Shown one piece after another: positions 22,300 to 25,191 of a stretch of DNA of 64,000 bases. Both the position numbers and the translations under genes were made by a program. Each line of letters starts with the position of its first letter. The first letter of the stretch is position 1. Under the pieces are notes generated by a model, which had not been told where the DNA came from, made no database searches, and saw only the letters and a list, made by a program, of their open reading frames with translations. This stretch comes from an uncultured Balneola sp. (GTDB lineage Bacteria > Bacteroidota > Rhodothermia > Balneolales > Balneolaceae): NCBI GenBank assembly GCA_913058495.1, contig CAJXQC010000001.1, positions 186,779 through 250,778 on the forward strand, in the 5' to 3' direction.

Positions 22300-22902
22300 T
22301 CAAAAGCTATTTCTGCTTGCAAATGCACGACTTAATGTGGCCTCATCAATGAACTCCAGCTCAGTTCCCATTGGGATTCCGTAAGCAATCCTGGTTACGG
22401 TAACATCGTAAGGGATTAGTAGTTTATTGATATAGTAAGAAGTTGCTTCACCTTCAGCATCAGGATTCAGCGCCAAAATTACTTCGGTTATTTCTTCATC
22501 TCCGCCAATGCGTTTCAGAAGCTGCTGAATTCGAATATTATCCGGTCCTACGTTATCCATAGGTGAAATAACCCCACTTAAAACATGGTATCGACCTCGA
22601 AACTCGTTTGTTTTTTCAATGATATAGACGTCATTGAATTCTTCCACAACACAGATAGTTCCATTTTGACGTTTCGCATTTTCACAAATATTACAAGGAT
22701 CAGAGTCACTTACATTTCCACAGATATCACAACGGGTAACTTTATTCTTGAGATCAATAATGGCATTAGCTAACCGAAGAGCGTATTCGTCATTTTGCTT
22801 TAATAAATGAATGGCAATTCTTTGAGCCGATTTTCTGCCTGTACCGGGAAGTTTTGCAAGCTGTTCAATAGCTCTTTCTAAATATTCTGAGGTTATCTGC
22901 AA
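22300..22902 (-). CDS. recR: Recombination mediator RecR
   Basis: 200 residues, standard for RecR. An N-terminal helix-hairpin-helix (LAKLPGTGRKSAQRIAIHLL) is followed by the C4 zinc finger CDICGNVSDSDPCNIC. The Toprim domain begins ICVVEEFNDVYIIEKT and ends with PMGTELEFIDEATLSRA. It works with RecO and RecF to load RecA on gaps. Start is TTG (complement of 22900-22902); no ATG precedes the HhH. The order dnaX, ebfC, recR is a conserved bacterial arrangement. Confidence 0.96.
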   Translation of the reverse strand: MQITSEYLERAIEQLAKLPGTGRKSAQRIAIHLLKQNDEYALRLANAIIDLKNKVTRCDICGNVSDSDPCNICENAKRQNGTICVVEEFNDVYIIEKTNEFRGRYHVLSGVISPMDNVGPDNIRIQQLLKRIGGDEEITEVILALNPDAEGEATSYYINKLLIPYDVTVTRIAYGIPMGTELEFIDEATLSRAFASRNSF

Positions 22903-22916
22903 GGAGATTAAAAATT

Positions 22917-22966
22917 AAAGATTAAAAATGAAAAATCAGGATTGGTGAACCCAATTTTTAATCTTT
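22917..22966. repeat. AT-rich inverted repeat between ebfC and recR
   Basis: AAAGATTAAAAAT (22917-22929) pairs perfectly with ATTTTTAATCTTT (22954-22966). Flanking AAAATGAAAAAT-type runs extend the symmetry. It is a typical A/T intergenic palindrome, with no T-run that would make it a clear terminator. Confidence 0.6.
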
Positions 22967-22987: not shown

Positions 22988-23335
22988 TCATAGTCCAAAT
23001 TTAGAAAGATCCATTCCGGGGATACCGCCGCCGGGAATCATACCTTTATAAGCTTCCTGCATTTGAGATTTTGCAGCTTCATCCGCTTGTTCAAGAGCTT
23101 TGTTAACACCGGCTACAACCAGATCTTCCAGCATCTCTTTGTCATTTGGATCGATTACATCCTCATCAAACTTGACGGAAAGGATCTGACGAAGCCCGTT
23201 AGCTTTAACTTTCACCATTCCGCCGCCGGCTTCTGCTTCAACAGTAACTTCAGCTAACTTAGCCTGACTTTCCTGCATTTTTGCTTGCATTTCCTGAACT
23301 TTGCCGAACATATCGGCCATATTAAAATCACTCAT
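22988..23335 (-). CDS. ebfC: YbaB/EbfC nucleoid-associated protein
   Basis: 115 residues, small DNA-binding protein that dimerises as tweezers. It has the family run of helix (MFGKVQEMQAKMQESQAKLAE), strands VEAEAGGGMVKVKANG, and VAGVNKALEQADEAAKSQM, then a flexible Gly/Pro/Met-rich end. It lies between dnaX and recR as in most bacteria, all on the minus strand. Confidence 0.94.
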   Translation of the reverse strand: MSDFNMADMFGKVQEMQAKMQESQAKLAEVTVEAEAGGGMVKVKANGLRQILSVKFDEDVIDPNDKEMLEDLVVAGVNKALEQADEAAKSQMQEAYKGMIPGGGIPGMDLSKFGL

Positions 23336-23403: not shown

Positions 23404-25191
23404 TTAATATTCTAACTCTGCACCAAACCGTTCTACCAAACTACGAACCATCGGATCTTTTTGTTGAATCTCCTTAAATCGTTCGTAAGGGTTTCGAGCT
23501 TTTGTTTGTTTAATCTTCTGTGACACTTCTACATTAAAACGAAGTGACACTCCAATACATTCCTGCAATTTTCCTGCCAATTCTTTGGCCTGTTCGTCCA
23601 ACATGGTCTTTGCTAACTGATTGTCACATTCTAATGACAATTCAGTCCCTTTCAGTTTTACAGGCAGGGCGCGTTCGGTTTGCATCTTTAAAATAGAAGA
23701 CACAGATCCATTCAAAGAATCAATAAACTCCGGCCATGCACTTTTTATGTCTTCGATCTGTAAATTCTTAGCTTCTTGAGAGTGTTGAGGCGTAGTTTCA
23801 ACTTTAATTTCGGTTTTAACTTGCTCTTTGCTCGCTTCATTTACTTGTGAAAACCTAGTTTTTAAAGCGGGTGTTCCGATATCAAATTCGTCATCAACTT
23901 CTTTTGTCGCTTCCGGTTCTTTTTCAGAAGATGGCAGTTCTTCTTCAACTATTGTTGAAGACTCTTCAGTAGATGGAACCAGATTCTCTTTTTCGGGTTC
24001 AGTAGCAGAGTCTACATTCTTTTTTTCCTGAACATCAGGTTTAGATTCAGGAGAAGAGAGGGGAGCTAAGTTTTTAGAGTTTTTTTTTACTTCCTCAAGA
24101 TCGGACAATAGTTTAGCGAGATTCTCAGAGCGTTCCATGTGAATGAGTTTGAGTAGTGTAATCTCAAACTGAATTCTTGGTTGATTCGCATCTTTGATCT
24201 TGATCTGTGCTTCAGAAACAATATGAAGCATTCGCATAAGGTCGTCGCGAGAAAAATCAGGAGCAGATTCTTTGTATTTAGCTTTTGTGTCTTCGGAAGC
24301 CTCAACCATATACAGCTGTTTGCTATGGTGAGCTATATACAAATTTCGTAAGTGCTCAGTAAGTCCAATCAGAAATTCCTGAATATCATACCCTTCCTGG
24401 AGCAGTGTATTAATCAGTTCCAGGCCTTTATCAGCATCATGCGTTTTAACGCAGTCCATAAACTGAAACAAGCGATCTGTTCCTACGACATTCAGTGCTT
24501 GGAGCAACTCATTGTGTGTGATGGAATCTCCACAAAAAGCTATTGCCTGATCCATCAAACCAAGAGCGTCACGAAGAGCTCCATCCGCTTTTTTAGCAAT
24601 TACATGAAGCGACTCGTCGTCTATAGAAATATTTTCGTCTTTCGAAATTTTTCTGAGTCTTCGAACGATCTCATCAACAGCTATGCGCTTAAAGTCGAAC
24701 CGTTGAACACGAGAAAGTATCGTAGGGAGAACTTTGTGTGGTTCTGTAGTAGCAAAAATAAAAATAGCATGCTCGGGCGGTTCTTCAAGTGTCTTTAAAA
24801 GCGCATTAAATGCAGCTTTTGAAAGCATATGAACCTCATCCACAATAAAAACTTTGTAGCGACCATTTTGAGGTGGGATCCGAACGGTTTCTCTTAAATG
24901 ATGAACATCGTCCACTTTGTTGTTTGAGGCGGCATCCATCTCAACCACATTCAGTGTTTGGTTAAGAGATTCCCCATCAACACTATTATCAATTTCATTT
25001 ATGGTTCTGGCAAGAACACGAGCCATCGTTGTTTTTCCAACTCCACGCGGACCGCAGAACATATAAGCATGGGATAAACGATTTTGTTTGATGGCGTTCA
25101 TCAAGGTAGAGCTTACATGATCCTGAGAAACAATATCCTCAAAGTTTTGCGGGCGATATTTTCTGGTAAGAGCGCGGTAGTTTTCTGACAT
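23404..25191 (-). CDS. dnaX: DNA polymerase III subunit tau/gamma
   Basis: AAA+ clamp-loader subunit, 595 residues. Walker A is GPRGVGKTT; VFIVDEVHMLSKAAFNALLKTLEEPP is the Walker B region; sensor motifs follow (IFATTEPHKVLPTILSRVQRF, split by helices). The region between ARTIN and NVVEMDAASNN is only about 19 residues and has no cysteines, so the usual C4 zinc knuckle is missing. Residues 370-470 form a Ser/Glu/Lys-rich linker before the tau-specific C-terminal domain. At codon 368 an A9 run (24088-24080) offers a slippage site: one extra A gives TAA two codons later, one fewer A gives TAG five codons later. Confidence 0.96.
   Translation of the reverse strand: MSENYRALTRKYRPQNFEDIVSQDHVSSTLMNAIKQNRLSHAYMFCGPRGVGKTTMARVLARTINEIDNSVDGESLNQTLNVVEMDAASNNKVDDVHHLRETVRIPPQNGRYKVFIVDEVHMLSKAAFNALLKTLEEPPEHAIFIFATTEPHKVLPTILSRVQRFDFKRIAVDEIVRRLRKISKDENISIDDESLHVIAKKADGALRDALGLMDQAIAFCGDSITHNELLQALNVVGTDRLFQFMDCVKTHDADKGLELINTLLQEGYDIQEFLIGLTEHLRNLYIAHHSKQLYMVEASEDTKAKYKESAPDFSRDDLMRMLHIVSEAQIKIKDANQPRIQFEITLLKLIHMERSENLAKLLSDLEEVKKNSKNLAPLSSPESKPDVQEKKNVDSATEPEKENLVPSTEESSTIVEEELPSSEKEPEATKEVDDEFDIGTPALKTRFSQVNEASKEQVKTEIKVETTPQHSQEAKNLQIEDIKSAWPEFIDSLNGSVSSILKMQTERALPVKLKGTELSLECDNQLAKTMLDEQAKELAGKLQECIGVSLRFNVEVSQKIKQTKARNPYERFKEIQQKDPMVRSLVERFGAELEY
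24080..24088 (-). promoter_or_regulatory. A9 slippery run in dnaX (candidate gamma-generating site)
   Basis: On the coding strand GTAAAAAAAAACTC, nine adenines starting in codon 368. In the zero frame it reads V-K-K-N-S. With ten A the frame becomes CTC-TAA; with eight A it becomes ACT-CTA-AAA-ACT-TAG. Both shifts stop within a few codons after domain III. E. coli dnaX uses ribosomal frameshifting on A6G, and Thermus dnaX uses transcriptional slippage on A9. Confidence 0.6.

Follow-up and report, generated by a model that had tools for sequence, protein, structure and literature searches.

In slippage of the Thermus type, the dnaX mRNA is heterogeneous at a run of A's, and gamma and tau are produced at about 1:1. 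PMC1088944 and PMC5009743 describe the A9 transcriptional slippage that Larsen et al. 2000 reported for dnaX of Thermus thermophilus. Two-ORF dnaX genes with a poly-A run, including those of Chlorobium and Chloroherpeton, were described by Antonov et al. 2013 (PMC3711429); their run, mostly of 10 A's, lies behind the clamp-loader core, and gamma is encoded in frame 0 while tau is reached by slippage. In dnaX of E. coli, a -1 ribosomal frameshift takes place at A_AAA_AAG with the aid of a Shine-Dalgarno sequence and a hairpin.

The dnaX gene studied here belongs to a Balneola genome and lies in a 64-kb window, which is the whole stretch of DNA analysed (Table 1). It resembles the T. thermophilus gene, as far as the cited passages describe that gene, in having nine A's within a single open frame for tau, near stops in both other frames and a predicted short product without the tau tail. 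It differs in coming from another phylum and in being known from sequence alone. The features of the Thermus type found in the window are the uninterrupted tau frame, A9 behind the core, the two near stops and a conservation beyond the needs of the protein. With the two-ORF genes it shares the poly-A run behind the core and the probable production of gamma and tau from one gene, but its tau is in frame; the two-ORF arrangement is found in two other Balneolaceae (L195 and L197) and in many other Bacteroidota, not in the window dnaX. The E. coli gene also gives gamma and tau, as the window gene probably does, and in both cases gamma would end 1-2 codons after an A-rich site. The window gene, however, has a longer run and a second frame that is closed too, and it lacks both a conserved hairpin and a Shine-Dalgarno sequence at the correct spacing.

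The mechanism is already known from the Thermus A9 and the two-ORF poly-A genes, and the window dnaX appears, by its sequence, to be a strongly supported additional member. Novel points, as far as the literature examined shows, are that the run is conserved at one exact site in Balneolaceae, that two members of this family have the opposite polarity, that polarity has often been reversed in the phylum, and that the third frame is closed. A literature search for Balneola together with dnaX found no paper.

Table 1. Features of the dnaX locus, in window positions.
Feature	Position	Strand	Basis
dnaX, full-length tau frame, 595 aa	23404..25191	-	ORF list; Pfam DNA_pol3_delta2, DNAX_ATPase_lid, DNA_pol3_gamma3
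Clamp-loader core, domains I-III, residues 1-359, common to tau and gamma	24115..25191	-	Pfam boundaries; alignment with E. coli DnaX structures
Putative A9 slippage run, codons 368-371 (GTA AAA AAA AAC)	24080..24088	-	Sequence; same codon in 78/86 family genes
TAA predicted to end gamma on one added A (or -1 ribosomal shift)	24074..24076	-	Sequence, translation; stop distances
TAG predicted to end gamma on one lost A (or +1 shift)	24066..24068	-	Sequence, translation; stop distances
Part present in tau only: variable linker followed by a conserved C-terminal domain	23404..24079	-	Uninterrupted open frame; relatives' matches
ybaB/ebfC, next gene downstream of dnaX	22988..23335	-	Pfam PF02575
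recR, completes dnaX-ybaB-recR order	22300..22902	-	Pfam Toprim_4, RecR_HhH, RecR_C

The dnaX locus and the proposed slippage

The order dnaX-ybaB-recR is the usual one in bacteria. Balneola sp. EhC07 is among the nearest named records, with a DnaX identity of 94%. Residues 4-350 of the window DnaX were aligned with residues 2-357 of E. coli DnaX, and Pfam PF12169 places the end of domain III at residue 359, so that A9 stands behind the core. The run occupies dnaX nucleotides 1104-1112, starting from the third base of codon 368, and appears as T9 on the plus strand. The coding strand at the site reads GAG GAA GTA AAA AAA AAC TCT AAA AAC TTA G. One added A leads to V-K-K-K-L-TAA and a product of 372 aa (42.5 kDa), and one lost A leads to V-K-K-T-L-K-T-TAG and a product of 374 aa (42.7 kDa), the masses being computed from the sequence; TAA is one codon and TAG four codons past A9. 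The full-length tau has 67.6 kDa in one uninterrupted frame, and the matches of most relatives to the tau extension reach residue 595. The sequence-only reading had placed A9 at codon 368 with stops in both alternative frames, which is exact, and at the end of domain III, with which both the Pfam boundary and the E. coli alignment agree. Its gamma-like product of about 372-375 residues also stands, while its masses of 41 and 66 kDa for gamma and tau were slightly low.

This A9 is the sole A or T run of at least nine in the window, and only about 62 separate runs of at least nine A's were counted in the whole 3.4-Mb genome after overlapping matches had been merged by hand. The stretch separating recR from ybaB contains an AT-rich inverted repeat, AAAGATTAAAAATGAAAAAT...ATTTTTAATCTTT (window 22917-22966), which is present as one copy in the genome.

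The A9 run is probably a programmed slippage site, used mainly by RNA polymerase, which gives tau and gamma from one gene. RNA polymerase would slip on A9 and produce dnaX mRNAs with nine A's alongside others with A's added or lost. The mRNAs with nine (or 9+3n) A's would be translated into tau, and the remaining mRNAs would meet TAA or TAG within a few codons and yield gamma, which would have domains I-III (ATPase and collar) and lack the tau tail. Judging from its E. coli homologue, this tail would contact the polymerase and the helicase. We infer the occurrence of the slip in transcription, its frequency and the role of gamma in the clamp loader.

Conservation of the run and the stops in Balneolaceae

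The window gene was compared with about 220 other dnaX genes, comprising 86 Balneolaceae genes with an intact frame start and, outside this family, genes from further genomes of the order (22), from other orders of the class (38) and from other classes of the phylum (80). In 78 of the 86 Balneolaceae genes, A9 or A10 begins at the same gene nucleotide, and the eight Balneola genomes are uniform, with A9 in each. A 5'-truncated gene outside the 86 (L196) carries A9 in the same context as well.

A simple explanation would be that there is no slippage and that the run merely mirrors conserved lysines and A-rich codon use. The genome is indeed AT-rich (window GC 39%), and Lys-Lys is conserved at the site. 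The codons, however, already contradict this explanation. Lys369 and Lys370 are each encoded by AAA in 78 of 78 genes, against an AAA share for Lys of 67% over whole genes and 40-86% at the other conserved Lys columns; at each of the remaining conserved Lys positions of dnaX, AAG is common. The amino acid at codon 368 varies among Leu, Val, Ile and Ala, and its third base nevertheless stays A: of the 83 Leu, Val or Ile codons before the lysines, 82 have A as their last base (Leu 66/67, Val 14/14, Ile 2/2, with 21%, 27% and 15% expected, respectively). When synonymous codons were shuffled within each gene, runs of at least nine A's at this place were expected in 6.9 of the 86 genes, against the 78 observed. 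The alternative frames are closed, which is also at odds with a run that mirrors only the protein. The eight exceptions in the family, seven members of genus g19 and G036, have no run at the site, but in six of them 8-10 A's stand in a row at another place close to the core or in the linker (nt 1073-1335); in the remaining two, L127 and L178, the longest A run has at most seven. A mere reflection of codon use is thus very improbable, and the comparison indicates that the A9 run is held by selection at the DNA level, beyond the protein requirement.

The distance to the first stop was measured in 75 family genes. In the -1 frame, which is entered by an added A, the median is 8 nt past the run versus 20 nt at control positions, and in the +1 frame, entered by a lost A, it is 19 nt versus 40 nt; +1 stops within 36 nt are present in 96% of the family genes and 46% of the controls. 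Because these genes are related, their p-values overstate the evidence. The test was therefore extended to family medians in the wider sample, without pre-selecting genes for close stops: the genes with tau in frame point in the same direction (p 3e-6 and 0.006, the latter for the weaker effect in the lost-A frame), as does the third frame of the two-ORF genes (p 1e-3).

By comparison among relatives, selection is thus seen to act on the run, its position after domain III and the stops in both other frames. The reading from the sequence had proposed a Thermus-like A9 slippage giving a gamma-like product and had named a lack of conservation among relatives as one refutation. Both the run, counted above in genus and family, and the closure of the two other frames proved to be conserved, and the proposal is supported at the level of sequence comparison.

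Asn at codon 371, directly after A9, is always encoded by AAC and never by AAT (48/48, with 19.9 expected from the codon use of each gene). This preference is demanded by neither of the alternative stops.

Possible signals for a ribosomal frameshift

Gamma could instead arise by a programmed -1 ribosomal frameshift as in E. coli dnaX, in which tandem tRNAs would slip on A_AAA_AAA or A_AAA_AAC and the ribosome would stop at TAA after a 372-residue gamma. Both heptamers are present in frame in the window dnaX, from which A_AAA_AAG is missing; the latter is present in 19 of the A9 genes of the family. The stop of the -1 frame is the closer and more constant of the two, and 31 of the 32 relatives with tau in a shifted frame need a shift in this direction. 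The base after A9 is never T, for which simple polymerase slippage gives no explanation and which would fit a ribosomal shift. The run length is less suited to this model: seven A's are enough for a ribosomal heptamer, and yet all 78 genes keep 9-10.

The stimulatory elements give a divided picture. A Shine-Dalgarno-like stretch able to form a strong duplex is found just upstream in 29% of the family versus 9% of the controls, and is missing in 71%. In the window, GAGGAAG abuts the T before the run and is thus only a few nt away, whereas about 10 nt are required of a Shine-Dalgarno sequence; the stretch adjoins the run there because the protein has Glu-Glu at this place. No match to 16S rRNA, whose end carries the anti-Shine-Dalgarno, was found in the assembly. 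No conserved downstream hairpin was detected in the 60 nt after the run (mean folding z -0.31 versus -0.28 in controls, 75 family genes). The window dnaX has a z of -1.83, with a predicted stem that starts about 22 nt past the run. Nothing consistent was found in a search for other slippery heptamers in dnaX genes without the run.

A separate tRNA-Lys for AAG was suggested as a reason for polymerase slippage of the Thermus type, according to the relevant passage of PMC5009743, and Thermus has two tRNA-Lys. In the genome of the window, only tRNA-Lys UUU was found (30 tRNA loci read of 34 matches, in an assembly that is possibly incomplete, given no 16S rRNA match), as in E. coli and unlike Thermus. 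On the loci read, the Thermus argument is therefore unusable here, and the tRNA set does not disfavour ribosomal slippage.

The +1 frame is closed early as well, although a lone -1 ribosomal shift needs no stop there, and slippage in both directions, as expected of a polymerase, is therefore favoured. The E. coli-like frameshift is considered unlikely as the main source of gamma, and RNA polymerase rather than the ribosome is the favoured slipping agent on the evidence of these sequences.

Tau polarity beyond the family

Runs of A9-A11 between codons 334 and 420 were found in 70 of the 140 genes of other families. Tau is in frame in 40 of them, is reached via one added A in 29 and via one lost A in one. 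Inside Balneolaceae, two species of one genus, L195 (G090) and L197 (G089), have A10, and their tau lies only in the added-A frame; a stop directly behind A10 closes their frame 0, whose last residues, up to 372, are A-K-K-K-D. Thus, tau is in a shifted frame in 32 genes (30 outside and two inside Balneolaceae), 31 of which need one added A, equivalent to a -1 ribosomal shift. For each of the 32 extensions a match was found to a tau extension encoded by some other genome (E values from 2e-4 to 5e-129), and they are therefore tau tails and not chance frames. Since tau is encoded only in the shifted frame of these genes, its production requires slippage at the run. L337 (G279) is the only dnaX seen to need a lost A (or the gain of two) for tau, possibly through a sequencing error; if there is no such error, a -1 ribosomal shift is excluded for that gene.

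A quick tree of 97 cores, with some long branches, implies a minimum of 15 switches in tau polarity. In the family f27, L382 has A9 and a shifted tau, and its relatives L381, L378 and L385 have A10 and tau in frame. Such a flip of the frame by one A among close relatives would be expected under phase variation, in which the run length in the DNA changes between cells or strains and tau is switched on and off. Against this, all eight Balneola genomes have the same length, and the A10 members of Balneolaceae other than L195 and L197 keep tau in frame. Tau is essential in the bacteria studied, and a switch removing it would be lethal without slippage. Phase variation is accordingly a highly unlikely account of the run. 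It seems fairly likely that slippage in much of the phylum is so efficient that the encoded frame hardly matters and one-base changes repeatedly swap the default product, which would be tau in Balneolaceae, with tau made only by slippage in at least the genus of L195 and L197.

Outside the family, a run is missing from the majority of the dnaX genes sampled in the class, including all 38 that come from its other orders. Among the genes beyond the family, the mean GC is 57% without a run versus 47% with one, and runs are kept in genes of up to about 61% GC, which again speaks against a run dictated by A-rich codon use. The lineages without a run may either lack gamma or obtain it by another route, such as the proteolysis that PMC5009743 mentions for Caulobacter.

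It has long been disputed whether gamma is real and under selection, and the number of bacteria studied in this respect is small. The run behind the core across a large phylum, its relocation in the linker where it was lost, and the closed escape frames provide independent evolutionary evidence for selection of both products. The slippage rate can be tested directly in natural relatives that are one A apart and have opposite polarities. For annotation, many dnaX genes of these groups seem truncated or frameshifted and probably are not.

The core shows a further difference within the class. Residues 55-85 of the window DnaX (window 24937-25029), between Walker A and the DAAS motif, are without the four zinc-module cysteines. 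None of the 108 genes examined from Balneolales (families f1-f5) has these cysteines, and four or five are present in all genes examined from the rest of the class. Judging from these sequences, the loss is common to the order Balneolales.
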